A DNA stretch of 21,368 nucleotides, from IMG/VR virus record IMGVR_UViG_3300003690_000322, positions 2,142 through 23,509 of that record; one strand, written 5' to 3'. The notes under the pieces are model-generated. The model had not been told where the DNA came from, did not search any database, and saw nothing but the letters and a program-made list of their open reading frames with translations. A program made the translations under genes and the position numbers. The stretch is from a virus. Every line of letters begins with the position of its first letter. The first letter of the stretch is position 1. Of the stretch, positions 4,121-19,405 are shown piece after piece.

Positions 4121-4131
4121 CATTGTTATAT
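4121..4131 (-). promoter_or_regulatory. repeated TATA-like promoter element, copy 1
   Basis: On the minus strand the site reads ATATAACAATG, one base different from the other four copies (ATATAACAAAG). It lies in the 65-bp gap before the beta-rich gene, with exactly 29 bases between the element and the ATG at 4091. That spacing recurs at two other copies. A TATA box here would put transcription start about ten bases before the start codon. Confidence 0.65.
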
Positions 4132-4156
4132 TTTTAACTTGCTCAGATATTTTTAT

Positions 4157-4345
4157 TTATTTAGTTCTATTGATAAAAGGTAAATCTCTTATTCCGAATA
4201 CCGCCAAGATTAAACCTACATCTAACATAGCAGTCATAAAGAAAGTGTTGAAGTCGATTGTACCTCCAAGCCATCCTCCAAGTGTTCCAAGAAATGCACT
4301 ACCTCCAATCAGAAGTCCTGCCCATTTTGTTTTTGATTTTAACAT
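4157..4345 (-). CDS. small two-pass membrane protein, holin-like
   Basis: The 62-residue product has a basic N terminus (MLKSKTKW), a glycine-rich membrane segment (AGLLIGGSAFLGTLGGWLGG), a short linker, a second segment (FMTAMLDVGLILAVFGI) and a basic end (INRTK). Size, two spans and charged ends fit a holin or small membrane pore. It directly follows an XhlA-like gene. The start has a strong AAGGAGG site. An alternative is a virion membrane-interaction protein. No enzyme motif. Confidence 0.55.
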   Translation of the reverse strand: MLKSKTKWAGLLIGGSAFLGTLGGWLGGTIDFNTFFMTAMLDVGLILAVFGIRDLPFINRTK

Positions 4346-4367
4346 TTTGAATACCTCCTTATGTTTA

Positions 4368-4577
4368 TTAAGATAACATCTTATTAATAAATATGCCTAT
4401 CCCGGCACCTATTGTTGCGATTACTCCACTTACATAGGCGACTTTTCTTTTAATTCCTTTAATCTCAACCTCGTGAGATTGCACTTTATTATTAATATCT
4501 TTTAAGTGTTGTTTAATTCCACCAATGTCTGCTTTAATTTCAATTATGTAATCAAGAATTTGGTCTGTCTTACTCAT
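4368..4577 (-). CDS. XhlA-like holin/haemolysin protein
   Basis: The 69-residue product begins MSKTDQILDYIIEIKADIGGI, a long amphipathic coiled coil with heptad-spaced Ile, Leu and Val to about residue 45. It ends in one membrane segment (VAYVSGVIATIGAGIGIFI) and a short tail. This coiled coil plus C-terminal anchor is the layout of the XhlA family, which helps lysis in bacterial phages. The ATG at 4577 overlaps the TGA of the upstream gene (ATGA) and sits behind GGAG; an in-frame TTG at 4589 is less likely. In an archaeal host it might mark the membrane for lysis or virion release. Confidence 0.65.
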   Translation of the reverse strand: MSKTDQILDYIIEIKADIGGIKQHLKDINNKVQSHEVEIKGIKRKVAYVSGVIATIGAGIGIFINKMLS

Positions 4578-4918
4578 TTCTTTCTCCAAACAAATAAAGT
4601 ATTAGTTGCTCTTGCCTTATCAAAATTAAGAACTATGGTTAATGATAGAACTATCCCTATAAGGCCGTAGAGTGCTCCGGACTGTGCTAAAAACATTGAG
4701 GTAAGGATTAAGATTAGTCCGAAGTATTCGTGTCCTATGAAGTCCCAGAATTGAAATCCCCATTGATACACATGTTCAACATATAGAAAACTACCAGTCA
4801 AAAGTAATATCATTCCAATCAAAGTATTTGTATAGAATAAGATTATCGCAATTCCTAAAAAGAAAAAGAAAGTTCCCCACATTCTCCGGTAATAGTTCGG
4901 TAAAGGTTGTCTTTTCAT
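4574..4918 (-). CDS. four-pass membrane protein
   Basis: The 114-residue product has four hydrophobic segments (about 14-30, 33-50, 63-80 and 82-99), short loops, a basic N terminus (KRQPLPNYYRRMW) and a basic C terminus (FVWRKK). Segments two and three are joined by an aromatic loop (EHVYQWGFQFWDF). The ATG directly follows the stop of the Asp-box fibre gene, and its own end overlaps the XhlA-like gene by 4 bases, so the three small membrane genes look translated together. It may be a lysis or release component; no family is recognised. Confidence 0.6.
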   Translation of the reverse strand: MKRQPLPNYYRRMWGTFFFFLGIAIILFYTNTLIGMILLLTGSFLYVEHVYQWGFQFWDFIGHEYFGLILILTSMFLAQSGALYGLIGIVLSLTIVLNFDKARATNTLFVWRKK

Positions 4919-5974
4919 TTATCCCGTCTCGTCTATCTTTGCTAATTCAGAATCTCCAACAACAAAGAGTAATTTATTTGTGTCATATTCAACTAATTGT
5001 GCTTTTGTAATATTAGTTGATAAAGCTGTTATGGCATTAAATGAATTATCTCCAATACTTCTATTTTGCCAAGTTACTCCGCTATCAGTAGAACGATACA
5101 ATGTCATTGTCATTCCCATTCTTGGAGTTACACTGGAACCGTATGTATCAAATTTGTATATTGTAAAGTAAATATTTCCATTTGTTGTCTTTAATAGATT
5201 GGAAACAAAGCTTTCTGTAGATGAATGGACAAATGACATACGTACTGTTACTGCGTCTGCTGCAGTATCAACAGTTTGTATAATTACCTCAGTTCCTGAT
5301 AGTGCTACAAATGTAGTGGCACTCGTAGCTATAATTGAACCATCTTCATGCAGACTTGTCATAGTTTCGGACTCCACAACCCAATTAACTCCACCATTTG
5401 TTGTTTTCCATATTGCAGCTCCCTGAACTGCAAAACCTGTTGTTCCATCTAACATATCTATTCCGCTTGTTGTTCCTGTGGGTCCAGCAGCACAAACTGT
5501 CCATGTATCTCCGGCATTTGTTGAATAATAAATACTTCTTGTAGTCATTGAACTATCTCCACAACATACTGCCACGGTTGCTGTTGGAAATGAGCAATCA
5601 AGAATCCTTCCACTTCCGGCAGGACTTGTACTTGAAGCTGACCAAGTATCTCCACTATCCGCTGCTTTAAAGCAACTTAAAGTATTATGGTCAAAACAAA
5701 CTGATTTAGTTTTATCTGCTACACAAACTTTCGCAACTCCAGTCATATCTGCATTATCTGCAGAGGCAGCTGCCCAAGTCACTCCACTATTAGTAGTTCT
5801 TATTGTGGAAGTCCCATTTGTTGCTGACCATGTTGTAGCGCTATGATTTAAAACTCCTTTAATACTACCTGTTGTATAAATTAAATCATTCCAAATTGAA
5901 TTATTAAATCTATTAGCTTCACTTGCGTAAAGTATATCTCCATCTACTTTGGGAAATCCGCCTTCTGCTGCCAT
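4919..5974 (-). CDS. Asp-box (BNR) beta-propeller tail fibre
   Basis: The 351-residue product carries five Asp-box motifs of the S/T-x-D/N-x-G-x-T-W type: about 60 (TTNSGVTW), 104 (AADSGDTW), 151 (STNAGDTW), 191 (TTNGGVNW) and 295 (STDSGVTW). These mark blades of a beta-propeller as in sialidase and sortilin folds. The N terminus (EGGFPKVDGDILYASEANRF) is shared with the tandem paralogue downstream in coordinates, and is probably the module that docks onto the baseplate. Sialidase catalytic residues (the FRIP motif and Arg triad) are not seen, so glycan binding is more likely than cleavage. The ATG follows AAGGAGAA. This copy is intact. Confidence 0.8.
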   Translation of the reverse strand: MAAEGGFPKVDGDILYASEANRFNNSIWNDLIYTTGSIKGVLNHSATTWSATNGTSTIRTTNSGVTWAAASADNADMTGVAKVCVADKTKSVCFDHNTLSCFKAADSGDTWSASSTSPAGSGRILDCSFPTATVAVCCGDSSMTTRSIYYSTNAGDTWTVCAAGPTGTTSGIDMLDGTTGFAVQGAAIWKTTNGGVNWVVESETMTSLHEDGSIIATSATTFVALSGTEVIIQTVDTAADAVTVRMSFVHSSTESFVSNLLKTTNGNIYFTIYKFDTYGSSVTPRMGMTMTLYRSTDSGVTWQNRSIGDNSFNAITALSTNITKAQLVEYDTNKLLFVVGDSELAKIDETG

Positions 5975-6017
5975 TAATTATTTCTCCTTATCATTTTATA
6001 TATTATTTGCCTTTCCA

Positions 6018-6539
6018 TTATGTTGCTGTCTCATCGATTACCATGACTTCTCTTTCTGCACCCATCAATATCAATTTATTTGTTCCGATTTCACTTAGTC
6101 CACCCATTGTCCATGCAATTATAGGCGGGTTATTGTCTCCTACGTTTGGAAGTGCACTCGTCTCCCATGTTAATCCTGAATCTTTAGACCTCCAGAGAGT
6201 TGTATTTACTTGAGAAGTTTCATAATTTCCAACAACACAATACAAATTCCCATTAGTTGTTTTAACTAAATTCGTCACAAGCATATTGGAACCTCCCATG
6301 TCACCCTGATATGCCCTTTCAGTGCCTCCGGCTGATGTGGTTCCAGTTTCAATAAAATTAGATTGGTTATTATGAACCATCACATAAGTTGTAGCCGAAA
6401 GTGCAATTAAATAACAATCAAATCTTGTTGGGGTCTGATTGCTGTTCTGACCGGAATCTGTCCAGTTTATCCCTGCATTAGAAGTAGTCCAAATATTTCC
6501 AGCATCATCTACTGCTATCCCTACGGTTGTGCTAAACAT
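6018..6539 (-). CDS. Asp-box fibre paralogue, C-terminal half (separated by frameshift)
   Basis: The 173-residue frame continues the homology of the intact fibre. The region just before its first ATG reads, in the same frame from about 6578, CAAGPT...LDM, matching CAAGPT...IDM of the paralogue. It then has IWTTSNAGINW and WRSKDSGLTWETS Asp-boxes and the shared ending TNKLIL...VIDETA. The ATG at 6539 is therefore an ancestral internal methionine. It overlaps the surroundings of the upstream TGA (TGATATG), so reinitiation after termination is possible. No Shine-Dalgarno site lies before it. It is either a stand-alone product or the untranslated remnant of one gene. Confidence 0.6.
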   Translation of the reverse strand: MFSTTVGIAVDDAGNIWTTSNAGINWTDSGQNSNQTPTRFDCYLIALSATTYVMVHNNQSNFIETGTTSAGGTERAYQGDMGGSNMLVTNLVKTTNGNLYCVVGNYETSQVNTTLWRSKDSGLTWETSALPNVGDNNPPIIAWTMGGLSEIGTNKLILMGAEREVMVIDETAT

Positions 6540-6540
6540 A

Positions 6541-7020
6541 TCAAGCGCACAAACATCTGCTGTGGGTCCTGCCGCACATCGTTGCTGAACCTCTATCTAA
6601 TCCAACCACCGCTACAGATGTAGAAGGCGCACTCACACAAAGTGCATTTGTTGCATTAGCCCACGGAGTAGAAATCTCAGTGTAGCTTTGTCCACTATTT
6701 GTTGAAATTGAAATATTGTTACTATCGTTTCTGCCTACCATTGCATTTGTTCTATCTGAATCTACAATGCACATGGCTCCTGTATTATGAGAGATTGTTC
6801 CGTTTGTCCAAGTCCCACCTGTATTAGAAGTATATGCAACTCCAGTACTTTCATATGCTGACCAGGCAGTTGCCGAATGTCCTAATACTGCTTCGCCATC
6901 TGTAACTGCATCTGCATTAATATGAGAAATAGTATTAAATTTGTTCCCATGATATATATTAGCTTCGCTTGCGTATGCTACATCTCCTGCTGCTTTTGGA
7001 AATACTCCTTCGCCTGCCAT
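6541..7020 (-). CDS. Asp-box fibre paralogue, N-terminal half (frameshifted)
   Basis: The 159-residue product begins MAGEGVFPKAAGDVAYASEAN, aligned with MAAEGGFPKVDGDILYASEAN of the intact neighbour. It has Asp-boxes at about 64 (TSNTGGTW) and 106 (STNSGQSY). After VAVVGLDRGSATM the frame leaves the homology and ends at a TGA at 6541. In the paralogue about 14 residues containing a complete Asp-box (around YYSTNAGDTW) stand at this place, so a deletion whose length is not a multiple of three is the simplest explanation. The ATG has a GGAGAA site. It may still make the docking module plus two blades. Confidence 0.65.
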   Translation of the reverse strand: MAGEGVFPKAAGDVAYASEANIYHGNKFNTISHINADAVTDGEAVLGHSATAWSAYESTGVAYTSNTGGTWTNGTISHNTGAMCIVDSDRTNAMVGRNDSNNISISTNSGQSYTEISTPWANATNALCVSAPSTSVAVVGLDRGSATMCGRTHSRCLCA

Positions 7021-7049
7021 TTATTTCTTCTCCATATTATTATAACTTT

Positions 7050-8096
7050 TTAATCCCATGCCTTAACTCCAAATTCATAAATATATGCTGGTCTATCTGC
7101 AGCACTTACAATTGATGCTTTTAATACTAATTGATAACTTGGTGTTCCTATTGTCGTAACTTCGTTTTCATTTAATGTTGAAAAGTTTGAACCATCATCC
7201 GAACTAAGTGACCAAGTAGCAGTTGCTCCTGCCAATTCTTTATTTGCTGTGAAAATTCCGTGGTCTAAAGTAATTACTCCAGAAGGACTGGTTGCAGTTT
7301 GGTGGTGGTCATATCCATGAGATTGAAAAACTTGGGTTACAGCTCCTTTAACATACCATGTATCGAAAACCTCCATTAATGCAGTTGAACCACCAGAAGT
7401 AATATTAAACTCAACATACCAATTTGAAGTAGCTGAAGAAATATCGGTAGTGGCTCCCCAAACGCTCCACTCATCTTTTTTATCTCTCTTAACACGAACT
7501 CTTGCGGTTTCTGCAGATACATCAAAATAAATCTCTACAAACTCAACATAATTATGTAATGTGAAAACTGTAACTGCCGTAGTCCCATTAGTAACTTTTA
7601 TAGTCCCCACACAACTATCTATTGTTGTGTCTACGTTGCAAATAAAAGTTGAATCTGCTGTCCTTGCATCAAATCCAGGACCACTTCCCTGTGTTCTTGC
7701 CGTTGAAGCTACACCATTACCGGATAAAATCATTTTTCCTCCTGCCTCAGTCACTGTTCCAGAAGTAGTCCATATAGCTGAATTAACGGTGCCAGTTGCA
7801 AAAGTATCTAATAATGTTGCAGTAAAATATCCAACAAGAGAATCATACATCATTGTAGTAGCTCCAGTATCTACCTCACCACTGGATTCTAAGGTTTCAA
7901 AACCAGCAACCCAACCATCTGCAGATACAGTTTCAAATTCAGTAACATCACTATCATAAATTATTGCATATCTATTCTGTGCTTCTGTTTGAAAAGCATA
8001 TCCCAGCACTCTTACATCAGATATATAAGTTGTTGAATTTCCTGCTAAATTCAGGACTTCATCCGCGCTTGCTGTTGAGCCATCTGCTATTGTCAT
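7050..8096 (-). CDS. large tail fibre or baseplate adhesion protein
   Basis: The 348-residue product is beta-rich. The central part (about 95-265: LLDTFATGTVNSAIWTTSGT, GGKMILSG, NWYVEFNITSGGS) has the alternating pattern of a concanavalin-like carbohydrate-binding sandwich. The C-terminal 70 residues (WSLSSDDGSNFSTLNENEV, then ...PAYIYEFGVKAWD) resemble the end of the hub protein encoded upstream. The ATG overlaps the stop of the previous gene by one base (TAATG). Likely a receptor-binding or fibre component attached near the hub. No enzymatic residues are identified. Confidence 0.65.
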   Translation of the reverse strand: MTIADGSTASADEVLNLAGNSTTYISDVRVLGYAFQTEAQNRYAIIYDSDVTEFETVSADGWVAGFETLESSGEVDTGATTMMYDSLVGYFTATLLDTFATGTVNSAIWTTSGTVTEAGGKMILSGNGVASTARTQGSGPGFDARTADSTFICNVDTTIDSCVGTIKVTNGTTAVTVFTLHNYVEFVEIYFDVSAETARVRVKRDKKDEWSVWGATTDISSATSNWYVEFNITSGGSTALMEVFDTWYVKGAVTQVFQSHGYDHHQTATSPSGVITLDHGIFTANKELAGATATWSLSSDDGSNFSTLNENEVTTIGTPSYQLVLKASIVSAADRPAYIYEFGVKAWD

Positions 8097-8488
8097 TATA
8101 TTAGTTTATCTTTCTCCACATAAGTAACTTCAATCGTGTTCGTCTTGGCTACTACTGTGTGTGTGGTTCTTGCCCACATTAATTTAGTTGAATCTGTGTT
8201 GAAAATACCGAATTCTGTCAAAGCATCTCCATTTGCCTCTGTGCTATTTACTAAGCATCTAAATGTGATTTGGTGATTTACCTCGTCTAATACTGGATAT
8301 CCTGTAACAAATACTTTAGTATTTGAGCCATTTATATTTACTGCTGTTACTAAATCAGTATTGGTTACTGCCGGTGTAGTTGTTCCTGTTCCTATCTTAA
8401 AGATTGTCGGTGCTGTATAATCTGGGCTTGCCTTAAAAGCCCTATTAATCATTAATTTTTTACCGGAGTTAGTTATTAGTCCACCCAT
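8096..8488 (-). CDS. collar-fibre-like tail protein
   Basis: The 130-residue product starts GGLITNSGKKLMINRAF, followed by YTAPTIFKIGTGTTTPAVTNTDL, then FRCLVNSTEANGDALTEFGIF near residue 85. This order (ITN.G..., FKIGTGTT.., and a late ...LTEFGIF) is the usual N-terminal region of tail-collar or fibre proteins. It probably links the hub to the larger fibre encoded immediately after it, with which it overlaps by one base. It is the first gene after a copy of the repeated TATA-like element, and no clear Shine-Dalgarno site precedes the ATG. Confidence 0.7.
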   Translation of the reverse strand: MGGLITNSGKKLMINRAFKASPDYTAPTIFKIGTGTTTPAVTNTDLVTAVNINGSNTKVFVTGYPVLDEVNHQITFRCLVNSTEANGDALTEFGIFNTDSTKLMWARTTHTVVAKTNTIEVTYVEKDKLI

Positions 8489-8517
8489 CTTATAATTTAT
8501 ATTCTTTCATTTTTAAT

Positions 8518-8528
8518 CTTTGTTATAT
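8518..8528 (-). promoter_or_regulatory. repeated TATA-like promoter element, copy 2
   Basis: On the minus strand the site reads ATATAACAAAG, followed by ATTAAAAATG. It lies in the 42-bp gap between the hub gene and the collar-fibre-like gene, with exactly 29 bases to the ATG at 8488. The same bases ATATAACAAAGATTAAAAA also occur at the protease promoter. Confidence 0.7.
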
Positions 8529-8530
8529 AT

Positions 8531-10531
8531 TTAATGATAACCCTCCACTATGATTTTGCTAATTTCTCCTGTTAAACCTGCTGATTCTGTAGCTTTCCAA
8601 CGTAAATCTGTTCCGGTATTTGTAAAGGTGTGAGTTGTTCCACTTGTTACAGTTTCCCAATTAGCACCCCCATTTGCTGTTAAATAATATGTGAATGCAC
8701 CACTTGCTACTGTACTTGTTAATTTAGCCGATGTCACTGTTGCATTATTATAATCTATTGCTAAACTTCTGGCATCCTGTCTATTTGTAAATGTTGTACT
8801 TCCTGTTGCTGCCCAAGTAGAACTACCTCCGGTATCTTTAAAATCATCATCTATGAAATTCTCGGTATAGATATTTTGATATTGCTGAACGAAATGATTT
8901 AGCTGAGCAATCTCTTCCTCTCCTAATTCGCTTGTTCCTAATAGTGCTGCTCCTGGATGACTTAAAATAAATCCTCTAAATGGGTCTCCCCACTTATTAG
9001 TTCCCCAAATTCCAAGAGTGGCACTTCCCCAAATCATACCAACACCAGCATATTGTGCAAAGTTGTAAAGTCCAGAACTCGCATGATTATAAACTAAAGT
9101 ATTTCCAGTTATCTGCTTTGTCTGAACTGTCCAATATCTTGGCTCGGTTTTAAATGTATAAGCATTATTAAATAACTCCATAACCAAATCTTGGTTTTGT
9201 GAATCTCGTTCTTCTATTCTTTTAATTCTTTCTTCTATATTTACTTGCCAATCTGATAATCTTAGTGGATTATCTCCCACTACTAATTCTTGGAATGAAC
9301 CAGGATATTTGATTGTTTGTTTCAAGATTACTAACTCTTTATTTACTGTAGGATTATTTATATTATCAACTATTGTTACCCTCTCTCCTACATTAAGATT
9401 TAAGTCAGTTGCTGATTTCAATAGGATTTCTCCAGTTTCAAAAGGAACTGAGAATTTATTTAAGATTTCTACAGCTCTTGCCTCTGCGTCTGCTATTGTA
9501 ATAATATCTGAAAGTGTAATCTCTTTTTCAAATACCCCATAAGTTGTTTGGCTTTCTGCATTTTCCATATGAATTGGTGCTGGTGCTAACCAAGAATAAT
9601 TTACAATAGCATAATCATTATTTGTATAAGCCGTTCCAGTTATAGGAAAGATTTTCTTAGTTTCCTTATCAACATAATAATAATTTCCAGTGCTACCATC
9701 CTTTGCTCCTCCTAATCTCTGAGTTGTTGGTGGATTAGAAGAATCAATTAATAATTCTACAATCTCTGGTGTTTTAGTTAAAAGAATACTTGCAGTTGTA
9801 TATCCACTTGTTGTCCCAATTCTTCCAGTTTCTTGTTTTTGGGTTTCTACTACTGCTCCATCCACTCTTAAGTCATTAACCAATTGACTTGTATCATAAC
9901 TCCATTTAGGAACTCCAATAATTTCTGTTCCTGTTGTTAGTGTTTTTCCAGAGTCAGTATTTCCTCTTGGTTCAAAATAAACTTTATTAGTTACTGGATT
10001 ATAATACACTTGATAATCTACTGCTTTAGCAAGAGCCATTAATCTTGAATAGATATCTACATGAATACATTTGAATTGTTCTATCTTTTCTCCAGCAAGT
10101 GTTCCTGTTGCTACTACTTCTGCAGTTAATCCTCCATACGTTTCTATTAAATCTTCGGCTATTGCACTTATCTGTCCGGCTTGTGAGCCAGTATCAAAAT
10201 AAACTTTATTAACATTCTTTCTTACTAAATCCCACATCTTGTCCTTTCCGGTTATCGATATGATACCTCCATCTGGTTCAAAATCAGAAACATAACCATC
10301 AAAGATTTTCTCATCTGTTGCAGTTGAAAATCCCTTCCAGATTTCTAATCTTTGTCCTACTTGTAAATTTATTGTATCATTTGTTGCCTTTAATACAATA
10401 AGTTTTAATTCAGAAATTCCACTTTGAGTTGTTCTTTCATACTCCCAATTTAAAGCTAATTTTGGAGTTCCAGCAGTAGTATCTAAAATAGTAACTCCCC
10501 CAATATTTACTTTCGTTTTGAGATTTGCCAT
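8531..10531 (-). CDS. baseplate hub / tail-tip protein
   Basis: The 666-residue product begins with a beta-barrel region (about 1-110: LQVGQRLEIWKGF, IFDGYVSDFEPDGGIISITGKDKMWDL) typical of gp27/gpD-type hub and Gp37-like proteins. In these, a short-range Q-VG-x-x-EIW and D-G-Y-V-SD pattern precedes an ISITG strand. Residues 110-220 continue the hub domain (IDIYSRLMALAKAVDYQVYY). Near 440 a coiled segment (IEERIKRIEERDSQNQDLV) leads to a variable C-terminal part with a beta-sandwich at about 560-666. It overlaps the previous gene by one base (TAATG). It should sit at the tail tip and carry the fibres. No peptidoglycan or pseudomurein hydrolase motif is visible. Confidence 0.75.
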   Translation of the reverse strand: MANLKTKVNIGGVTILDTTAGTPKLALNWEYERTTQSGISELKLIVLKATNDTINLQVGQRLEIWKGFSTATDEKIFDGYVSDFEPDGGIISITGKDKMWDLVRKNVNKVYFDTGSQAGQISAIAEDLIETYGGLTAEVVATGTLAGEKIEQFKCIHVDIYSRLMALAKAVDYQVYYNPVTNKVYFEPRGNTDSGKTLTTGTEIIGVPKWSYDTSQLVNDLRVDGAVVETQKQETGRIGTTSGYTTASILLTKTPEIVELLIDSSNPPTTQRLGGAKDGSTGNYYYVDKETKKIFPITGTAYTNNDYAIVNYSWLAPAPIHMENAESQTTYGVFEKEITLSDIITIADAEARAVEILNKFSVPFETGEILLKSATDLNLNVGERVTIVDNINNPTVNKELVILKQTIKYPGSFQELVVGDNPLRLSDWQVNIEERIKRIEERDSQNQDLVMELFNNAYTFKTEPRYWTVQTKQITGNTLVYNHASSGLYNFAQYAGVGMIWGSATLGIWGTNKWGDPFRGFILSHPGAALLGTSELGEEEIAQLNHFVQQYQNIYTENFIDDDFKDTGGSSTWAATGSTTFTNRQDARSLAIDYNNATVTSAKLTSTVASGAFTYYLTANGGANWETVTSGTTHTFTNTGTDLRWKATESAGLTGEISKIIVEGYH

Positions 10532-10896
10532 TATGCCAATCCCTCAATTAGTGTGAGAGAGTAATTTATCCTATTAACAGAACCTGCTGACCAAGTCCAA
10601 TTAAAATCTTGGATTAATACTGTTTTGTTGGTAGTAATAAAATCTCCAACATAAGTTAAGCCAGTTTGACTTCCATTTTGTAGTCCCTCTATATCTGTAA
10701 CAAATGCTACTAAGTTCGCTTTGGTATTATGTTGGAATACTCCATCTATTGTAATAGTTCTTGTTGTTCCAAATAAATCTAATAAGATTGTAGAATCGCT
10801 ATCACTTACTGGAAGTGGTTGAGTGAATAAACCAGAGTTCTTGGCTTGCCCTTCTGATTGAATTTCTCCTAAACTTTTTCCTCCTATTGTCGCCAT
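10531..10896 (-). CDS. baseplate / distal tail protein
   Basis: The 121-residue product lies between tape measure and hub, the position of a distal tail or initiator protein. It reads IGGKSLGEIQSEGQAKNSGL, then a strand-rich middle (TITIDGVFQHNTKANLVAF) and NWTWSAGSVNRINYSLTLIEG at the end. Sequences with ...RTITIDGVF and a C-terminal ...INYSLTLIE pattern are typical of LysM-associated or gp48/gp53-like tail proteins. The ATG is preceded by AAGGAGG and follows the tape-measure stop directly; the end overlaps the hub start. Identity within the family is uncertain. Confidence 0.65.
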   Translation of the reverse strand: MATIGGKSLGEIQSEGQAKNSGLFTQPLPVSDSDSTILLDLFGTTRTITIDGVFQHNTKANLVAFVTDIEGLQNGSQTGLTYVGDFITTNKTVLIQDFNWTWSAGSVNRINYSLTLIEGLA

Positions 10897-11933: not shown

Positions 11934-11955
11934 TGTGTTTTTGTTTAAATCTCAT

Positions 11956-12153
11956 TTATTTTCTCATTGCCTCAGCTTCTAATTTCTTAAACTCTTCTTC
12001 GGCTTCTCTAAGAAATATAAGTCGTGAATCAAATTGACTATCTACTTGTTGAGGTGTCCAACCAAAGCTATGTGCGTAATACCAATAAATTAATTCCCTA
12101 TTGGCAAACTCATCATTGGGTCTTAATCCTCTAAGGGCTTCTCTGATACTTCT
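11956..12153 (-). CDS. gpT extension of tail assembly chaperone, made by -1 frameshift
   Basis: In the -1 frame relative to gpG, starting at the last A of a nine-A run, the sequence encodes RSIREALRGLRPNDEFA, then LIYWYYAHSFGWTPQQVD and a charged end EEEFKKLEAEAMRK, 65 residues to TAA at 11956-11958. The pattern of an aromatic helix followed by GWTP..VD is characteristic of gpT-type extensions. There is no start codon suited to independent translation. The fused gpGT product would be about 187 residues. It fills the otherwise empty 189 bases between gpG and the tape measure. In lambda-type phages the G:GT ratio set by such slippage is needed for tail assembly on the tape measure. Confidence 0.85.
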   Translation of the reverse strand, partial: RSIREALRGLRPNDEFANRELIYWYYAHSFGWTPQQVDSQFDSRLIFLREAEEEFKKLEAEAMRK

Positions 12154-12518: not shown

Positions 12519-12531
12519 TTTTTATACCTCC

Positions 12532-13530
12532 TTATGATTGTTCAGCTGGTGCTGTTTGAAATGTATTTGTATAGATAACGCTTGTGCATGCTCTTGCCCA
12601 ACCAGTAATATCTTCTTTAACAACTTCTCCTGCATTTTGTGGCAAGGTTTCTTCGTTAAATTTTATTCCTGTCCAGTTGATATCAAGAATATCTCCGTCA
12701 TCATTTGTAAATGTTAATTCAAGTGTAGCGATTTCTGTTCCACTTCCTGGCGTTGGTATAGTTGCTGAACTTGTTCCATTTAAGAAATAAGTAAATAAGT
12801 CCGTACGGTCATTAAATGCTGCTGTCAATTTGAAGTTGTATTCTCTTGTCTTTGCTACGATTGCTTTCGGAAATCTGCTACCAACTTCTGATACTATTTC
12901 TAAGTTATTAACGAACGTTAGCTCTACTGTTTGAACTGCTGCTAATTTTGTTCCATCTGGAATTTCAATACTTCCATGTGCAAAAGTGAAAACCGGATTT
13001 GGCTCTACTACGTTTGAGCTTGCTGAAGTACCTAAAGATTCATATCTATAAGGGCATTCCAAACTGAATTTTACTGGTTCATTTACTGCTGCACTAATTG
13101 TACATTGATTTACTCGACATCCTAATAGAATACTTTGTGCATCTGTAGTGCCTAACTCATAAGCTAATTTTGTTGTAAAGCTTGGTAATACATTAGTTTC
13201 TGTGTATGTATGAGTATAAGCTCCAGAACTTCCAGCATCTGCATTAGCTCCAAGTACACCTAATAACCAATAAGCATTTGATAAAGCTCCATTGATTGTA
13301 ACTGACCCAGAATAAATAGTATTAATTGTTGATGTTGCATTTCTTGCTCCAACTCCATAAATTCTCTCAGCACTATTTTTACGACTTACGCTTATTTCAA
13401 TTCCTTGTCCGAATGCTACATAACTCTCAGTTGATGCTGAGTGTGCTGTTGCTGCTCCGTCCCATTGTGCTGCTTGCTCAAACGCATAAATTGCTACGCT
13501 ATCTCCACCTGATATATAGTTTTGTCCCAA
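12532..13530 (-). CDS. major tail tube protein
   Basis: The 332-residue product is placed immediately before the gpG/gpT chaperone. It shows the tube-protein pattern: N-terminal VAFGQGIEISVSRKNSAERI with a GVGARNA turn, and repeated beta strands (SGSVTINGALSNAYWLLGVL, then a later second half with EIPDGTKLAAVQTVELTF and LFTYFLNG), ending with an added strand-rich tail. The two similar halves fit a tube protein with duplicated barrel topology. Translation must begin at TTG (13530), since no ATG or GTG is nearby and a strong GGAGG lies 9 bases before it. It should polymerise around the tape measure. Confidence 0.75.
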   Translation of the reverse strand: MGQNYISGGDSVAIYAFEQAAQWDGAATAHSASTESYVAFGQGIEISVSRKNSAERIYGVGARNATSTINTIYSGSVTINGALSNAYWLLGVLGANADAGSSGAYTHTYTETNVLPSFTTKLAYELGTTDAQSILLGCRVNQCTISAAVNEPVKFSLECPYRYESLGTSASSNVVEPNPVFTFAHGSIEIPDGTKLAAVQTVELTFVNNLEIVSEVGSRFPKAIVAKTREYNFKLTAAFNDRTDLFTYFLNGTSSATIPTPGSGTEIATLELTFTNDDGDILDINWTGIKFNEETLPQNAGEVVKEDITGWARACTSVIYTNTFQTAPAEQS

Positions 13531-13531
13531 T

Positions 13532-13708
13532 TTATTTTACCTCCTTGTGAATTTTAAATCTCTTTTTTCTTTTAGAGTTGTAATTTTTTTTAATATCTTT
13601 TTTTAAATCTTTGAATACTTTTTTTATATTTCCTACTTCTTTTTTAATATCTTTTTTTGCTTTTAACCAAGCTTCTCTTTTTAATTTTATCATTTCTTCT
13701 CTTTCCAT
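13532..13708 (-). CDS. 58-residue lysine-rich helical protein
   Basis: This short frame fills the gap between tail terminator and tail tube. It starts MEREEMIKLKREAWLKAKKD, has two similar stretches (KKDIKKEVGNIKK and FKDLKKDIKK) and ends RFKIHKEVK. About 40% of its residues are Lys or Arg, and it should form an amphipathic helix. The ATG shares one base with the upstream stop (TAATG), and its TAA is one base from the TTG of the tail tube gene; the GGAGG for that TTG lies inside this gene. Those tight junctions argue for translation. It may bind nucleic acid or regulate tube translation; the function is unknown. Confidence 0.65.
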   Translation of the reverse strand: MEREEMIKLKREAWLKAKKDIKKEVGNIKKVFKDLKKDIKKNYNSKRKKRFKIHKEVK

Positions 13709-14379
13709 TATGCTATTCTCTCCACGTTTATGATGCTTTGGAAGTCAAGGTTTTGACTCATTATCTCTTGCCTCTTAGCTGGGTCTTCAATCATTGGACC
13801 GATGCCTGTTGGTTGAATATATCCAAGCGTATAAAACGACTTCCTATTTTCTAAGAACTTTGTCCTTATAGTTTTTGTGTAACTATTCATACTAACTACG
13901 GATTGTGCAAAGATTTGAACACTGAATAATATATTAGAAATATCTTCATTACCTCCAATACCAAATGCAGTTGTAGAAACACTTAATACATCTACTGATA
14001 TTCTTGGGTATGAACTAATGCTTAAATCATCTCTTGGAAAATCTGGCCAAATCTTATCAGTGCCATAATCATAATCTATTGAATAAGAACCTGTTTGTGC
14101 TGTGACAAATGTAATTTTACACTTTCTTGTTCCACTATCGTTAAAATAATAATCCACAGAATAATCTGTTCCGAATGATTTTACTACACTTGCTACTGTT
14201 ATACTTTTAATATTCTTTACATTAGTTCGATTAATTAAATATGACGAAGTAGAGCTAAAAGTTCCGGTATCTTGTGTATTAGTTACCCCTCTATTAGTTA
14301 CTGAGATAATATTTTGGTTTCTAAGAAATACAACCAACTCTTCTTTAATCTCTTGAATATCAATTACTTTGACTGCCAT
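13708..14379 (-). CDS. tail terminator / tail completion protein
   Basis: The 223-residue product lies between the HK97 gp10-like gene and the tail tube, where tail terminators are usually encoded. The N terminus (IQEIKEELVVFLRNQNI) is a helix; the middle has VDYYFNDSGTRKCKITF and YSIDYDYGTDKIWPDFPR, then YPRISVDVLSVSTTAFGIGG. The YPRISV...GIGG segment followed by strands (FSVQIFAQS) and an RTKF..NRKSFY helix fits the terminator fold. It begins at an ATG with no clear ribosome site. Expected role: caps the tail tube and joins it to the neck. Confidence 0.7.
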   Translation of the reverse strand: MAVKVIDIQEIKEELVVFLRNQNIISVTNRGVTNTQDTGTFSSTSSYLINRTNVKNIKSITVASVVKSFGTDYSVDYYFNDSGTRKCKITFVTAQTGSYSIDYDYGTDKIWPDFPRDDLSISSYPRISVDVLSVSTTAFGIGGNEDISNILFSVQIFAQSVVSMNSYTKTIRTKFLENRKSFYTLGYIQPTGIGPMIEDPAKRQEIMSQNLDFQSIINVERIA

Positions 14380-14386
14380 TATCTAA

Positions 14387-14758
14387 TTAATTTTGGTTAT
14401 TTAATACCTCGTTTAATCTTTTCTGAACAATTCCTCTTAATTTGGTATGTAAAGTAGTTCTAATAAATGGATTGGGTCTTGTTCCTGGATGGTTTACTTT
14501 CTTAACAATAATAGTATCTCCTCCTGATTTAAATGCCAGTGCTTTCTTAGTATTAGGTGTAATTGTATGTGGTGGTGTTCCAAATTCAACAAATTTAGCA
14601 TAATCTACAAAATAAAACATTAAACCATTTGAAGTTACCTCTGCAATAATCCTACCTGCCAAATTTCCTGTTTTGAATGGTGCTGCATCGCCAAAGGCAT
14701 TTCTTAAATCTTGTCCTATAGCAAACATAGCTGAATCCAACGCTTGTTGTATGTCCAT
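14387..14758 (-). CDS. HK97 gp10-like neck / tail component
   Basis: The 123-residue product has the family pattern almost complete: KTGNLAGRI near residue 30, then FVDYAKFVEFGTPPH, KKALAFKSGGDTIIVKKVNHPG and RPNPFIRTTL. It ends with a basic helix. This is the HK97_gp10-like family, a head-tail joining or tail completion protein that works with adaptor and closure proteins. It is the first gene after a copy of the TATA-like element. GAGGG lies just upstream of the ATG. This is one of the clearest family matches in the window. Confidence 0.85.
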   Translation of the reverse strand: MDIQQALDSAMFAIGQDLRNAFGDAAPFKTGNLAGRIIAEVTSNGLMFYFVDYAKFVEFGTPPHTITPNTKKALAFKSGGDTIIVKKVNHPGTRPNPFIRTTLHTKLRGIVQKRLNEVLNNQN

Positions 14759-14801
14759 ATTCCCTCTTGGGTAATTAAAATAGTAGTCAATACCTTATAA
14801 C

Positions 14802-14812
14802 CTTTGTTATAT
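14802..14812 (-). promoter_or_regulatory. repeated TATA-like promoter element, copy 3
   Basis: On the minus strand the site reads ATATAACAAAG, followed by GTTATAAGG. It overlaps the TAA of the upstream closure gene and leaves 43 bases to the ATG at 14758. The spacing is longer than the 29 bases seen at three other copies, so the leader would be about 25 bases, leaving room for the GAGGG ribosome site. Confidence 0.65.
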
Positions 14813-15160
14813 TTCAAATAATAAAATTGTTTTGAAGATTACATTACTTGCGAATAATCTTTGTGACATTGTATCTACACGATAGTTCTTTGAATTATGT
14901 AATATCTTATCGTTCTTGTTCAGAGTTTCGGTTCCCTTAATGAACATTCTCGCATCTGCTCCTTTAGTTAAACCTGCTTTATCAAAAGAATATTTTTGAT
15001 TTGTGTTTTCAAATACTCCTGTTAAAGTATTCGTTGTAGTATCTACATAAATCTTCTCCCCAGTAATATTATGGATTGAAGTAGTTACTGGTGTTCTTGT
15101 AACTGTTACTCCAAAATCTGCAGAAGGTCCATCTATAAAGTCGTTTTCTGTTATAGCCAT
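14807..15160 (-). CDS. head closure / neck protein
   Basis: The 117-residue product lies between adaptor and gp10-like genes. It reads SADFGVTVTRTPVTTSIHNI, then TGVFENTNQKYSFDKAGLTK, ADARMFIKGTETLNKNDKIL and a terminal strand. The GV.VT..PVT..... G and ...GLTK..DARMFI pattern matches small phage neck or head-completion proteins. It follows the adaptor gene after one base. Such proteins form a ring below the adaptor that seals the head and binds the tail. Confidence 0.7.
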   Translation of the reverse strand: MAITENDFIDGPSADFGVTVTRTPVTTSIHNITGEKIYVDTTTNTLTGVFENTNQKYSFDKAGLTKGADARMFIKGTETLNKNDKILHNSKNYRVDTMSQRLFASNVIFKTILLFEI

Positions 15161-15161
15161 T

Positions 15162-15983
15162 TTAAATTATTATAGTATGTGTTATTTTTAATCTCTTCAT
15201 AATTTCGTCTTTCTCTTTGATTAGTTGTACTGCTGTTTCTCTCCACTGTGTATAAGGTTCTCCTTTCTGAACACTAAACTGCCCCATAGAATATCCAACT
15301 ATATCATCATAACTTTGTCCTACGAATCTTGCTACTAAAGCTAAAGATACCAATATTTTTAATAATCTTTCGAATAATACAGGAATAGCTACAACGTTTA
15401 CTAAACTATTGTCTGAGTGACTATAACTTATTTCGTCAAGTGTCAAATTATTTGAAGAAATAGCTGTTATCTTGGAAACTTCCTTATATCCATCATCTCC
15501 ATAGATTTCTACCCAGTTACCAACAGAATAAGCTGAACCATCATCTACTCCTGCTGTAACAGACGTTCCCTTTGAAATTGCTGCAGTTAGTAGATTACCT
15601 ACTCCCGTAGATGTAACTCTTCCATAAATATATTTTAAAAGTATTTTTTGTTCCTTATTAGTAAAATTAGAAATGGTTGAATCAGAGCTTAATCTAATTC
15701 TTCCAGACCTTCTAAAATTCAAATCGGATACTGTTAAAGCTGTACCATCATTTTTGACACTTCTTACTGCTAACAATGGCCCTTTATCTGCAAACATAGT
15801 CGCCTTATCTGAACCGTCTTGTACTTCATATTCTATTGTCGGAACAAATACTGTATTATAATATCTTTCAACCTGATATTCTACATCTTCTATTACTGCA
15901 GTAACATCTGCGTCTGAGATTTCTGCCGAGGAAATACCTACAACTGTCCTGACTTGTGCTATGGTGATATACCTAACTGCCAT
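15162..15983 (-). CDS. head-tail connector (gp6-like adaptor)
   Basis: The 273-residue product begins VRYITIAQVRTVVGISSAEI, then SDADVTAVIEDVEYQVERYYNT, the helical start typical of gp6/gp15-like adaptors. A middle beta-rich insert follows (RVTSTGVGNLL...AGVDDGSAYSVGNWVEIYGDDG), which makes it longer than usual (commonly 100-200 residues). The C-terminal part returns to helices (LFERLLKILVSLALVARFVG). The ATG directly follows the stop of the small basic gene. It should bind the portal from outside and start the neck. Confidence 0.7.
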   Translation of the reverse strand: MAVRYITIAQVRTVVGISSAEISDADVTAVIEDVEYQVERYYNTVFVPTIEYEVQDGSDKATMFADKGPLLAVRSVKNDGTALTVSDLNFRRSGRIRLSSDSTISNFTNKEQKILLKYIYGRVTSTGVGNLLTAAISKGTSVTAGVDDGSAYSVGNWVEIYGDDGYKEVSKITAISSNNLTLDEISYSHSDNSLVNVVAIPVLFERLLKILVSLALVARFVGQSYDDIVGYSMGQFSVQKGEPYTQWRETAVQLIKEKDEIMKRLKITHTIII

Positions 15984-16211
15984 TTATTTTTTTTCTTTAA
16001 GTTTTTTTGCCTTCTTTTTAGTTTCTATTTGCTTTTTACCTATTGAAGATTTTACTGCTTTAACCTCGCATTTTACTAATCCGTGACTTAATGCTCTTTC
16101 CTCGTCTTCAATTTCCTTATATTCTCCTGGTCGAACAGTTACCCATTCGTTACCATACTTATATCCTAAGCAAAACTTTATCCTTTCTGAAGTGTTGTTT
16201 GTGAATTCCAT
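15984..16211 (-). CDS. small basic protein upstream of adaptor
   Basis: The 75-residue product starts MEFTNNTSERIKFCLGYKYG, then NEWVTVRPGEYKEIEDEERA and HGLVKCEVK, and ends in a lysine-rich tail (KKQIETKKKAKKLKEKK). The compact pattern ...N.T...I.......W.TV.PGE...I is widely seen in short phage proteins encoded between capsid and adaptor genes. The ATG at 16211 has GGAGG 7 bases upstream, so I prefer it to the in-frame TTG at 16223. It follows a copy of the TATA-like element and a poly-T tract. Function unknown; the tail may bind nucleic acid. Confidence 0.7.
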   Translation of the reverse strand: MEFTNNTSERIKFCLGYKYGNEWVTVRPGEYKEIEDEERALSHGLVKCEVKAVKSSIGKKQIETKKKAKKLKEKK

Positions 16212-16250
16212 AGCTACCTCCAACTATGGAACTGAAAAAAATTATATAAA

Positions 16251-16261
16251 CTTTGTTATAT
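16251..16261 (-). promoter_or_regulatory. repeated TATA-like promoter element, copy 4
   Basis: On the minus strand the site reads ATATAACAAAG, directly followed by a second AT stretch (TTTATATAATT). It lies immediately after the poly-T tract that ends the previous unit and 39 bases before the ATG at 16211. The terminator-promoter order is what a unit boundary should look like. Confidence 0.7.
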
Positions 16262-16263
16262 TC

Positions 16264-16295
16264 AAAAAAAAAAGAAAAAAGAAAAAAAAAGAAAA
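16264..16295 (-). terminator. poly-U terminator after capsid-associated gene
   Basis: The minus strand has three T runs (about 9, 6 and 10 T), separated by single C bases, within 32 bases right after the stop of the 149-residue gene. No stem-loop precedes them. Factor-independent termination at T-rich tracts without a hairpin is characteristic of archaeal RNA polymerase, which makes this one of the better hints about the host. Confidence 0.6.
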
Positions 16296-16300
16296 TGTTT

Positions 16301-16750
16301 TTAAGATATACGATAAGCTATGAACGTATTTGCTGCGCTTCTTCTGAATCTAAATACTCCTGAACTATTAATATCTGTTCCTGCGTCATCTACTGTTGCT
16401 GAACCTACTACTGTAACTCCAGTTCCTCCAACTAATGTAATAATATCTCCGGCTCCGCCTAAATTTATAATACATAAATCAAAAGTGTCGTTTGTTGCTA
16501 TAGTTGTTGAAAGTGCTGCTTCTAAAAGTGTTCCTGTTAGCGTAGTATAGTTTGCTGTTGCTGCCGGTGTTCCTACTAAAATTCCACCAGTCATTTGAGC
16601 TGCCGTCATTGTTGTTGTTCCTGTTGCTGTCTGAGGTGCTGCTTGCGAACCATATTCTGTACCTGCAAAGGTTATGTCATTTGAAAATCGTAAATCTCCT
16701 GAACCCTCAAATGGCGTACTTGCCACTCCGATTTCTGCTGTTAATGTCAT
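16301..16750 (-). CDS. capsid-associated beta-rich protein (possible decoration)
   Basis: The 149-residue product has TTTMTAAQMTGGILVGTPAA, then a segment with TLLEAALSTTIATNDTFDLC and IINLGGAGDIITLVGGTGVT, and ends FRFRRSAANTFIAYRI. The order TMTA.Q..GGI....P.A.....T...L..AL......G..FD..I.N.G......T....GVT is a familiar phage structural protein found beside capsid genes, usually a decoration or minor head protein. It ends a transcription unit, just before a poly-T tract. Decoration is inferred from position. Confidence 0.6.
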   Translation of the reverse strand: MTLTAEIGVASTPFEGSGDLRFSNDITFAGTEYGSQAAPQTATGTTTMTAAQMTGGILVGTPAATANYTTLTGTLLEAALSTTIATNDTFDLCIINLGGAGDIITLVGGTGVTVVGSATVDDAGTDINSSGVFRFRRSAANTFIAYRIS

Positions 16751-16757
16751 CTTAAAA

Positions 16758-17051
16758 TTAATGACACCAGATTATTGCCGTCTTAGCTCCAGTATCTGAA
16801 CCGCCAAGTGTTATAACTAAAACTCCTGCTGTAACTACTGTAGTTGGTGCCTGAGTAACTACCACACTACCAGTTGTAGTTTGGTCAAATACTAAAATTC
16901 CATCTAAGAGTGTACAACCGAAATCGTTCAAATCAACTTGAACTGTATCTGTTCCACCAATAACAGTGTCTGCATAAACTACTCGAATCATTTTGACTCC
17001 AAGATTTGGTGCAACCTCTATCATTGTTCCTACTTCTCCTAATGCTGTCAT
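16758..17051 (-). CDS. small capsid-associated protein
   Basis: The 97-residue product reads MTALGEVGTMIEVAPNLGVK, then VVYADTVIGGTDTVQVDLND and WC at the end, with an even alternation of strands. It follows the major capsid gene after a 113-bp leader and has GGAGG upstream. Position, small size and strand content fit a head decoration or stabilisation protein, or a phage structural protein of the YADTVI..TDT type. The exact role is not established. Confidence 0.55.
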   Translation of the reverse strand: MTALGEVGTMIEVAPNLGVKMIRVVYADTVIGGTDTVQVDLNDFGCTLLDGILVFDQTTTGSVVVTQAPTTVVTAGVLVITLGGSDTGAKTAIIWCH

Positions 17052-17079
17052 GTTTGTTTTTACCTCCTTGTGCTTGTTT

Positions 17080-17098
17080 GATAGATTAAGGTTCTATC
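17080..17098 (-). promoter_or_regulatory. hairpin in leader of the small capsid-associated gene
   Basis: A perfect 6-bp stem GATAGA/TCTATC with a 7-base loop lies about 10 bases before the GGAGG of the gene starting at 17051. A second stem GGGTT/AACCC is at 17115-17130. Together they fill the leader between a T-rich tract and the ribosome site. They might control translation or protect an mRNA end. No structure probing is possible here. Confidence 0.35.
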
Positions 17099-17130
17099 TA
17101 CCTAATGGATTTTAGGGTTCCATTAAACCC

Positions 17131-17160
17131 ATAAAAAATAAAAAATAAAATAAAATATAC
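17131..17160 (-). terminator. T-rich tract after the major capsid gene
   Basis: The minus strand reads TATTTTATTTTATTTTTTATTTTTTAT a few bases after the capsid stop, with no hairpin before it and two hairpins after it. It may terminate part of the capsid transcripts, leaving the following genes at lower level, since no copy of the TATA-like element lies in this gap. Confidence 0.45.
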
Positions 17161-17164
17161 CTAC

Positions 17165-18298
17165 TTAAGAGATATTATCGATACCTGAGCAAAATTCTGG
17201 TGCTCTATTGATGATAACTTCATAAATCTTCAACATAAACTTACGGCTATCGTTAGTTTTTGCTAATTCTTCAAAAGTCATATCTTGTAGAACTCTCATT
17301 TCAATATAGTCCATATCCCAGAAGAAAATTTGCTTTGCTCCTGAAACGTTAGACATATACATAGATGGAATTACCGGAATTCTTCCGACTGGTGTTTGTA
17401 GAACCAATTGCGCATTAATACCGAAAGCTATTTCAGTTGCGTTGTCTGCTGGGCTCATTCTGAAAGTATCTATCATGATTTTTCTCAAATCATTCAAAAC
17501 ACTACTCGAACAAGTAGCTAAACTTGGTCGTCCACCATCGTCGAATGCTGCTGTTACTGCTGTATCTACGTCACTCCATACAAGAGCTGATGTAGATTTA
17601 TCTGTAACATTTGTACTTCCTTGTAGTGTAATCAATCCATCGAATTCTGTTCCGTTAGGTCCAGAACCAACTGATGTTGTGTTACTACCTAATAGCATCA
17701 AATTTTCTTCTAATTCTTTCAATGCTCTTGCTGCAAGTAATACTTCTTGTTGTAGTGCGCTACTTGCCGGTGCATTACTGAATGGACTTCCGCCGGTTTG
17801 TGCTCCGCCTGGTTGAAATCCTTCCATCATATAAGCTGGTACTGCTGCTTGTGCTGGGCCTGTAACTCTTCCTACAGAATAAAGATACTTGATTGACTTA
17901 CTGACTCTTTCTCTTGTATGAGAAACGTCTGCCAATGCTGCGTCTTCTGCTGCAGTTGTTGCTGCTCCCTTTGCAGTAACTCTGTTATAATCTGCTGTAA
18001 TACCTTGGTTTGCGACTCTTGGAATTAACTCTGTCAATGGTGTGTATTTCCTTGACACGTCTACAATTCTGCTATCTACATAGACAGGAATCATAGCGTA
18101 ACCAGCTGTTCCAGCTCCGCCTGTTGTGGTTGCAAAAGATTTTAATCCAGCTGTGAATTTAGATTTAAGTTCACTTCTGTTATCAAATCCTCTATAACCA
18201 CCTGCGTAAACTGTTCCGTCTGGCAAGTTTCCAAATGATTGCGCATACAATGCTTTAGTATCGATGCTTCCACCGAAACTTGATGTAACTGCTGTCAT
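17165..18298 (-). CDS. major capsid protein, HK97 fold
   Basis: The 377-residue product follows directly on the prohead protease/scaffold gene (TAATG overlap), the normal place of the major capsid protein. It has an N-terminal segment (about 1-60), an E-loop/P-domain-like region with VDSRIVDVSRKYTPLTELIP, a long helix (LQQEVLLAARALKELEENLML), an A-domain with GLITLQGSTN and LNDLRKIMIDTF, and a terminal stretch (YIEMRVLQDMTFEELAKT). Residues QTPVGRIPVIPS and FFWDMDYIEMR resemble capsid proteins of tailed archaeal and marine viruses. Codon and residue choice (Ala, Thr, Ser-rich, few Lys) fit a highly expressed virion protein. Confidence 0.85.
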   Translation of the reverse strand: MTAVTSSFGGSIDTKALYAQSFGNLPDGTVYAGGYRGFDNRSELKSKFTAGLKSFATTTGGAGTAGYAMIPVYVDSRIVDVSRKYTPLTELIPRVANQGITADYNRVTAKGAATTAAEDAALADVSHTRERVSKSIKYLYSVGRVTGPAQAAVPAYMMEGFQPGGAQTGGSPFSNAPASSALQQEVLLAARALKELEENLMLLGSNTTSVGSGPNGTEFDGLITLQGSTNVTDKSTSALVWSDVDTAVTAAFDDGGRPSLATCSSSVLNDLRKIMIDTFRMSPADNATEIAFGINAQLVLQTPVGRIPVIPSMYMSNVSGAKQIFFWDMDYIEMRVLQDMTFEELAKTNDSRKFMLKIYEVIINRAPEFCSGIDNIS

Positions 18299-18594
18299 TA
18301 TCCAATTATGTCCAAAGGTTCTACAGACACGATATCCTTAACTTCTTTAGGTACTGTGTGCGCTAAAGCTTTAGAATTTACTTTCTTATTCATTGAGATT
18401 AAGTTAGCAACTTCTTCCTTTAATGCTTTTACCTCTTCAGCTAATGAGTCCGAAGCGTCTTCACTTTCTTCAGCTTCTGGTGCTGCTTCTTCCGGTGCTT
18501 CTGCTTCTGCTTCTGATTCCTCTGATTCAGTAGATTCAACTACTGCCTCAACTTCCTCAGATGCTTCTTCGCTTGTCTGTTGTTCGTCTGACAT
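18298..18594 (-). CDS. scaffold protein from internal start within protease gene
   Basis: Inside the protease-scaffold gene an in-frame ATG at 18594 follows AAAAAGGAGG with 8 bases spacing, one of the best ribosome sites in the window. It would yield 98 residues starting MSDEQQTSEEASEEVE, highly acidic, with a coiled coil (SLAEEVKALKEEVANLI) and the same C terminus. This mirrors lambda, where the scaffold NU3 is made from an internal start in the C protease gene. The protease-scaffold fusion would deliver the enzyme to the prohead while the free scaffold drives assembly. Inference from the ribosome site. Confidence 0.65.
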   Translation of the reverse strand: MSDEQQTSEEASEEVEAVVESTESEESEAEAEAPEEAAPEAEESEDASDSLAEEVKALKEEVANLISMNKKVNSKALAHTVPKEVKDIVSVEPLDIIG

Positions 18595-19365
18595 TTTTAT
18601 ATCCTCCTTTTTGGTTTTTATTTCACTATGTGAATTTGATTTGTCTTTTACTTCTAATAATTCTTTGTTTTCTGAGTTCGATTTATAATCTTCCATTACT
18701 TCATCAAGTAATTCCACAATCATGGCTTTGTATTTTTCTTTTGTTTTATTCTTTTTCTTTTTCTTTTCTTCATCATCATCATCTTCTTCATCTTCTTTTT
18801 CTGGTGGGTTTTTAGGTCTCTTGTGGGGAATTCCCATTTTCACTGCTTCCATAGATTTAATCATGATTTCTCTGATTTGTGCTCCGGTATTTACTGGGTT
18901 TCCTGTTAGAGCTACATTTAATAAAACTAAATCATCTAATAACCTTACCTCTTCCCCATTCTTTACTTCATTACTAACTCTTGTTGGAATATAAGCAATA
19001 CTGAAAGCATCGAGGTACTGTCCTTGAATACTTCCTTTTGTTTCATCATATCTACTATGATGGGGATTAATTTTTGCTTTAACTCTTAATTTGTTATTCT
19101 CAATAGTGGCATCCACTAATCTACCTATTGGAACTTTAGTTTTATTAATTTCTTTTTCTTCATTATCCGCGCCTTTAAATGACTCATGTTCTAAATCTAA
19201 TTTAATATTTCTTTCAAGAATTTGTGTCTTCATACTTTCTAAACACTTTACAGTGATAACATCATTTACTAAATCTTTTTCCGTTGTTGATATAAAACCA
19301 TCCAAATATAAATCGTCTCCCTTTGTCTGAATATCAAATGGCCTTGTGAATATGAAACTCTGCAT
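18298..19365 (-). CDS. prohead protease fused to scaffold domain
   Basis: The N-terminal part (about 1-165) matches the HK97-type prohead protease: strand FDIQTKGDDLYLDGFISTTE, then KLDLEHESF with the catalytic His (about 60), LDAFSIAYIP with the catalytic Ser (about 122), and LLNVALTGNP. A long charged linker (EDEEDDDDEEKKKKK) and a C-terminal acidic and coiled-coil part (EEVKALKEEVANL) form the scaffold. The fused gene lies directly before the capsid gene. ATG at 19365 is preferred because it gives the same 29-base spacing from the TATA-like element as two other genes; an in-frame GTG at 19374 is possible. A strong internal start makes a free scaffold likely. Confidence 0.8.
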   Translation of the reverse strand: MQSFIFTRPFDIQTKGDDLYLDGFISTTEKDLVNDVITVKCLESMKTQILERNIKLDLEHESFKGADNEEKEINKTKVPIGRLVDATIENNKLRVKAKINPHHSRYDETKGSIQGQYLDAFSIAYIPTRVSNEVKNGEEVRLLDDLVLLNVALTGNPVNTGAQIREIMIKSMEAVKMGIPHKRPKNPPEKEDEEDDDDEEKKKKKNKTKEKYKAMIVELLDEVMEDYKSNSENKELLEVKDKSNSHSEIKTKKEDIKMSDEQQTSEEASEEVEAVVESTESEESEAEAEAPEEAAPEAEESEDASDSLAEEVKALKEEVANLISMNKKVNSKALAHTVPKEVKDIVSVEPLDIIG

Positions 19366-19394
19366 ATCCTCCACAGTGTTCAGTTCTTTTTAAT

Positions 19395-19405
19395 CTTTGT
19401 TATAT
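19395..19405 (-). promoter_or_regulatory. repeated TATA-like promoter element, copy 5
   Basis: On the minus strand the site reads ATATAACAAAG, then ATTAAAAAGAAC. It is in the 62-bp gap before the protease/capsid operon, 29 bases before the ATG at 19365. The same 19-base core also occurs at copy 2. Confidence 0.7.

Follow-up and report, generated by a model that had tools for sequence, protein, structure and literature searches.

What kind of promoter is marked by an 11-base sequence that recurs on one strand before the structural genes of an anonymous tailed virus, and where does its TATA box lie? The question is raised by IMG/VR virus record IMGVR_UViG_3300003690_000322 (full length, 23,509 bases), of which positions 2,142 to 23,509 were analyzed; these 21,368 nucleotides are referred to as the window, and all coordinates are those of the window. 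The 11-mer, ATATAACAAAG, is very probably the upstream half of a promoter for archaeal RNA polymerase, consisting of a B recognition element (BRE) and a TATA box, that opens the structural units of the virus, as judged from its sequence, its spacing and the position kept in relatives.

Copies and spacing of the 11-mer

The genes of the window lie on the minus strand with a coding share of 93%, and the plus-strand open reading frames (ORFs) overlap minus-strand genes. The exact 11-mer occurs four times on the minus strand (8518, 14802, 16251 and 19395), and a one-mismatch copy, ATATAACAATG, is found at 4121 on the same strand; a scan of the window thus reproduces the five positions given in the initial annotation. 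What had been overlooked there is a sixth, degenerate copy, GTATAATAAAG (1285–1295), which is followed by CATATAAG and stands 29 bases before ATG 1255. No further match with up to one mismatch was found on either strand of the window, and the whole 23.5-kb record contains no copy on the opposite strand and no additional exact copy. The concern that the 11-mer might be equally common inside genes or on the plus strand is not borne out, with zero plus-strand copies and none wholly inside a gene, every copy being intergenic or straddling a stop codon.

Order-3 Markov simulations (300 runs) gave 0.037 exact copies on average and at most 1, against the four observed. When one mismatch was allowed, 5 matches were found vs 1.53 expected, and 1 of 100 shuffles reached 5. 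The only other 11-mer that attains four minus-strand copies sits inside genes. The distances from the 11-mer to the ATG are 29, 39, 43, 29 and 29 bases for ATGs 19365, 16211, 14758, 8488 and 4091, respectively; recomputation at all five sites agrees with the 29-, 39- and 43-base spacings first described, and the copies at 8518 and 19395 indeed have exactly 19 bases in common (ATATAACAAAGATTAAAAA). As also stated earlier, no -35 partner is visible in the upstream sequences. The wider proposal of a viral, TATA-type promoter element heading units of structural genes is supported.

Register of the TATA box and its conservation in relatives

The octamer directly after the 11-mer matches NWTAWAW at all five of these sites, against an intergenic background of 3%. 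When this virus is taken together with its closest kin by capsid identity, L006 (82%) and L005 (75%), the pattern follows 10 of 11 promoter copies and none of the 12 look-alikes that the scanned sequences contain outside promoters; as it was chosen after the sites had been seen, the associated P=1e-5 is only indicative. The octamer centre lies exactly 25 nucleotides (nt) before the ATG at three of the five sites (19365, 8488 and 4091), so that the 29-base spacing would put the TATA centre at the distance expected for a leaderless archaeal mRNA.

The set of relatives consists of 74 loci carrying a related capsid gene and 57 carrying a related tail tube. Before 163 of their starts without a Shine–Dalgarno (SD) sequence, TATA-like 7-mers peak at -29 (18) and -28 (16), with ~2 per position elsewhere, and such a 7-mer lies at -31 to -26 in 62 of 382 upstream regions of relatives, compared with 22.5 ± 4.4 in shuffles. 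The -29/-28 peak was not seen in unrelated viral contigs; a Woesearchaeota metagenome-assembled genome (MAG) has the same peak, at -31 to -28. Expectation maximization, run with a third-order background on the intergenic regions of relatives that share the capsid gene, returned an A-rich stretch followed by TTTATAAA; plain motif discovery put poly-T tracts first, and the third-order background was required to reveal the BRE/TATA motif. Across 42 ortholog promoters, A-rich, BRE-like columns occupy -8 to -4 from the TATA box. The BRE consensus is RNWAAW, and ACAAAG at -6 to -1 from the octamer fits five of its six positions. Because the octamers occupy the TATA position of the relatives and NWTAWAW distinguishes promoter copies from look-alikes, ATATAA inside the 11-mer is not taken to be the TATA box. 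On these comparisons, the predicted TATA box is the octamer, and the 11-mer fills the BRE position and extends beyond the BRE.

Before the orthologs of the genes starting at 19365 and 14758, L006 carries CTATCACAAAG/GTATCACAAAG and L005 carries CTGTAACAAAG/CTGTAACAAAA. The downstream proteins are only ~45–48% identical over their length, so the matching elements do not simply reflect recently shared DNA. In the wider family, a TATA box at -31 to -26 precedes the protease-like gene (ATG 19365) in 32 of 51 orthologs and the 8096–8488 gene in 10 of 18, compared with 18 of 292 control genes (P=1e-22). A promoter at the neck gene is found mainly in the close lineage (4/46), only two orthologs of the 15984–16211 gene were found, with a promoter in register in neither, and the search returned no relatives of the 3687–4091 gene. 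The sequence at the BRE position varies by lineage (CAATAAAG, ACAAATAT, CAACAATA, GAAAGTAG and others). In a subgroup (L018, L020, L021, L025, L028, L031, L039, L053 and L072), a near-invariant TAAATACTTTTAAAAAGATTAAAAATA promoter stands upstream of the protease gene, mostly with an SD leader, an arrangement unlike that of the leaderless subgroup.

The exact 11-mer has two occurrences in the 74 capsid relatives, and a close version of it persists in just two near relatives. An IMG/VR scan with the 11-mer plus TATA pattern yielded 120 contig stretches, of which the 80 listed each hold a single, chance-like copy. The 11-mer therefore fails as the marker for relatives and hosts that it was proposed to be if general; the features that hold generally are the BRE/TATA architecture, the 25-base distance to SD-less starts and the position in the gene order.

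The sites at 8518 and 4121 lack an SD sequence and stand at a leaderless distance from the ATG. Those at 16251 and 14802 combine longer spacings with SD-like sequences (GGAGGT and AGAGGG), and the predicted starts therefore leave short SD-containing leaders; SD sequences are also present at many genes within units. For the gene at the 19395 site, relatives support ATG 19365 rather than GTG 19374 as the start. We infer that the host TATA-binding protein (TBP) would bind the AT-rich octamer, that transcription factor B (TFB) would contact AACAAAG at the BRE position, and that transcription would start ~25 bases past the TATA centre. The predicted start falls on the A of the ATG for 19365, 8488 and 4091, which would give leaderless or near-leaderless mRNAs, whereas 16211 and 14758 would receive a 10–15-base leader with an SD sequence. 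Within the structural region, five or six parallel promoters may thereby head one unit after another.

Alternative readings and the host

Several observations weigh against an archaeal BRE/TATA promoter of this form. The window copies agree more closely in the 11-mer than in the TATA octamer, an unusual relation between a BRE and a TATA box. GGAGG stands immediately before the ATG at the 19395 site, which is possibly not leaderless, and in L006 and L005 the element of the protease gene lies more than 29 bases from the ATG, so the exact spacing differs in the nearest kin. With respect to an archaeal host, the capsid-bearing genome contigs look virus-only and may have been mis-binned, G037, one of the three archaeal-phylum contigs, has only one minor promoter match, and archaeal MCM (not a specific marker), PCNA and primase were absent from the 20 related records searched.

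The constancy of the 11-mer above that of the TATA box could be explained by a dedicated factor, by recent copying or by selection for an optimal BRE. An extended lineage-specific operator, in which a BRE adjoins the binding site of an additional transcription factor, from the virus or the host, or of a TFB paralogue and the structural units are switched on together, is possible, with odds clearly against it. Conservation extends 11 bases upstream of the TATA box, YTRTMACAAAG-like elements precede orthologous genes in close kin, and L045, L075 and L077 repeat elements of their own, all of which would suit such an operator; the slightly raised within-contig similarity (P=0.017 with the window, 0.09 without it) is suggestive only. 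The statistics are weak, however, no candidate factor is at hand, and recent copying or BRE optimization would give a like pattern. The operator is compatible with the archaeal BRE/TATA reading and does not exclude it. Somewhat less likely again is a lineage-dedicated, co-evolving element (ATATAACAAAG here; CTATCACAAAG, CTGTAACAAAG and others in kin) with its own factor or a host TFB paralogue, serving as a structural-gene switch in an uncultivated archaeal host.

The initial annotation placed the TATA box at ATATAA, treated AACAAAG as a possibly virus-specific downstream extension and implied leaders of ~12 bases. ATATAA does resemble a TATA box, and one subgroup of relatives, with CTTTTAAAAAGATTAAAAAT before the protease gene, has an AT-rich box in the upstream place plus an SD sequence. 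This register is nevertheless improbable and appears to be wrong: the downstream octamer is TATA-like at every site and missing after the non-promoter look-alikes, ATATAA is replaced by CTGTAA in L005 and by CTATCA in L006, and the -29/-28 peak of the relatives fits the octamer rather than ATATAA at -40.

A bacterial-type late promoter of a bacteriophage, either T4-like (TATAAATA) or dependent on a phage sigma factor, is very unlikely. Capsid relatives are found on contigs binned as Woesearchaeota, WOR-3 and Bacteroidia; the last two bin names, together with the SD sequences common within operons, would agree with a bacteriophage. However, bacterial -10 elements are not expected to keep a fixed distance of 25 bases between TATA and ATG at SD-less starts, and the 25-base register is absent in unrelated contigs. 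Furthermore, sigma70 and T4 late promoters are not matched by an element at -40 to -22 from SD-less ATGs that has no -35 partner. The sampled bacterial phyla gave no further members, only the seed genome being recovered in the phylum of the Bacteroidia bin (396 genomes) and in that of the WOR-3 bin (147); in the archaeal phylum to which G001, the Woesearchaeota bin, belongs, 3 of the 371 genomes sampled had capsid relatives. From the promoter architecture, the host of the virus is likely an archaeon, and a Woesearchaeota-type host is suggested as an unproven lead.

Chance AT-rich repeats, to which the AT-rich genome and the single matches to the pattern dispersed over many unrelated contigs might point, have next to no probability and count as already refuted by the 0.04 exact copies expected, the bias in strand and position, and the conservation at orthologous genes.

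Units of the virus and relation to known promoters

Table 1. Promoter elements and head genes of the window.
Feature	Coordinates	Strand	Support
ATATAACAAAG, BRE-position element of the protease–capsid unit	19395..19405	-	Orthologous CTATCACAAAG / CTGTAACAAAG before the same gene in L006 / L005
Putative TATA octamer ATTAAAAA, centre 25 nt before ATG 19365	19387..19394	-	Register set by relatives
Head maturation protease-like gene, opens unit, directly upstream of the major capsid gene	18298..19365	-	
Major capsid protein, HK97 fold, SU10_MCP family	17165..18298	-	Pfam PF17236 E=2.5e-23; PHROG major head proteins
ATATAACAAAG, long T-rich tract in front	16251..16261	-	
Putative TATA octamer TTTATATA; longer leader, GGAGGT before ATG 16211	16243..16250	-	
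ATATAACAAAG, overlaps stop codon of preceding gene	14802..14812	-	Orthologous elements in L006 (10848) and L005 (7037)
Putative TATA octamer GTTATAAG; leader with AGAGGG before ATG 14758	14794..14801	-	
ATATAACAAAG, upstream of tail-module gene	8518..8528	-	
Putative TATA octamer ATTAAAAA, centre 25 nt before ATG 8488, no SD (predicted leaderless)	8510..8517	-	10/18 orthologs with TATA in the same register
ATATAACAATG, one-mismatch copy	4121..4131	-	
Putative TATA octamer TTTAAATA, centre 25 nt before ATG 4091, no SD (predicted leaderless)	4113..4120	-	
GTATAATAAAG, degenerate sixth copy	1285..1295	-	
Putative TATA octamer CATATAAG, 29-nt register to ATG 1255	1277..1284	-	

The features are collected in Table 1. 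The presumed protease, so named from its gene position, has no match in Pfam or PHROG. Tail tube, tape measure and neck genes are also present in the virus. The best named-phage matches of the tail tube include the Haloarcula tailed viruses HCTV-1 and HCTV-16 (~30% identity) and also two bacteriophages; no similar capsid was found among the named phages in the collection. Judging from gene content alone, the structural genes under the 11-mer are probably late genes.

Other features of the window were noted alongside. A T-rich tract (16262–16300) between a stop codon and the 16251 promoter may be an archaeal intrinsic terminator that ends the upstream unit; T-tracts are not proposed as general terminators, their strand bias being only mild (66 regions with T7+ vs 40 with A7+). 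Alternative frames overlap at 979–1255, where the ATG 1255 frame (84 aa) begins exactly 29 bases past the sixth copy, and a membrane-protein frame from ATG 1245 is more protein-like. In the head gene region, a Zeta-toxin/polynucleotide-kinase-like domain (20695–21366; PF06414, E=8e-25) lies at the end of a longer protein that continues beyond the window edge. The genes at 6018–7020 and 4919–5974 are a paralogous pair, both starting MAxEGxFPKxxGDxxYASEAN, and the former looks split into ORFs 6541–7020 and 6018–6539, perhaps by a frameshift or a sequencing error. A small protein encoded at 2070–2552 has a FLDLGSGNGQV motif typical of S-adenosylmethionine-dependent methyltransferases and has no PHROG match.

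On internal evidence, this anonymous tailed virus from a metagenome, like some 70 viruses related to it, is likely to be a virus of archaea; the borders of its operons and its predicted start sites are open to testing. A promoter-register test, that is, a TATA peak 25 nt before SD-less starts, could sort archaeal from bacterial viral contigs, whereas the exact 11-mer has little value as a marker.

Compared with the archaeal BRE/TATA leaderless core promoter bound by TBP and TFB, the elements described here share the TATA centre 25 nt before an SD-less ATG, the A-rich element directly upstream of the TATA box, the absence of a -35 sequence and the positional peak seen in the Woesearchaeota MAG. 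They differ in that the TATA box of this virus is degenerate (ATTAAAAA, GTTATAAG) and the 11-mer at the BRE position nearly invariant. The intergenic repeats of halovirus HF2, an archaeal tailed virus, likewise carry BRE/TATA promoters and keep their position among relatives (PMC8707807). They are 29–58 bp long and have a conserved start-site motif; counted from the mapped start, the TATA box begins at -26 and the BRE spans -33 to -37. They are active in a reporter assay, and changes to the BRE left activity unaffected (PMC8707807). As in HF2, a promoter sequence is repeated within one virus, here in five or six copies, and its position is conserved at orthologous genes; unlike in HF2, the conserved part is the upstream element, and the promoter is read from the sequence. 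In SIRV2 and other archaeal viruses, a common upstream sequence of BRE and TATA (TTTAWATA) marks a co-expressed class of early, putative anti-defence genes (PMC11065993). Our copies resemble it as a conserved BRE/TATA upstream sequence and differ in preceding structural genes. By comparison with HF2 and SIRV2, the repeated promoter of this virus is a new example of a type of signal that is already known.

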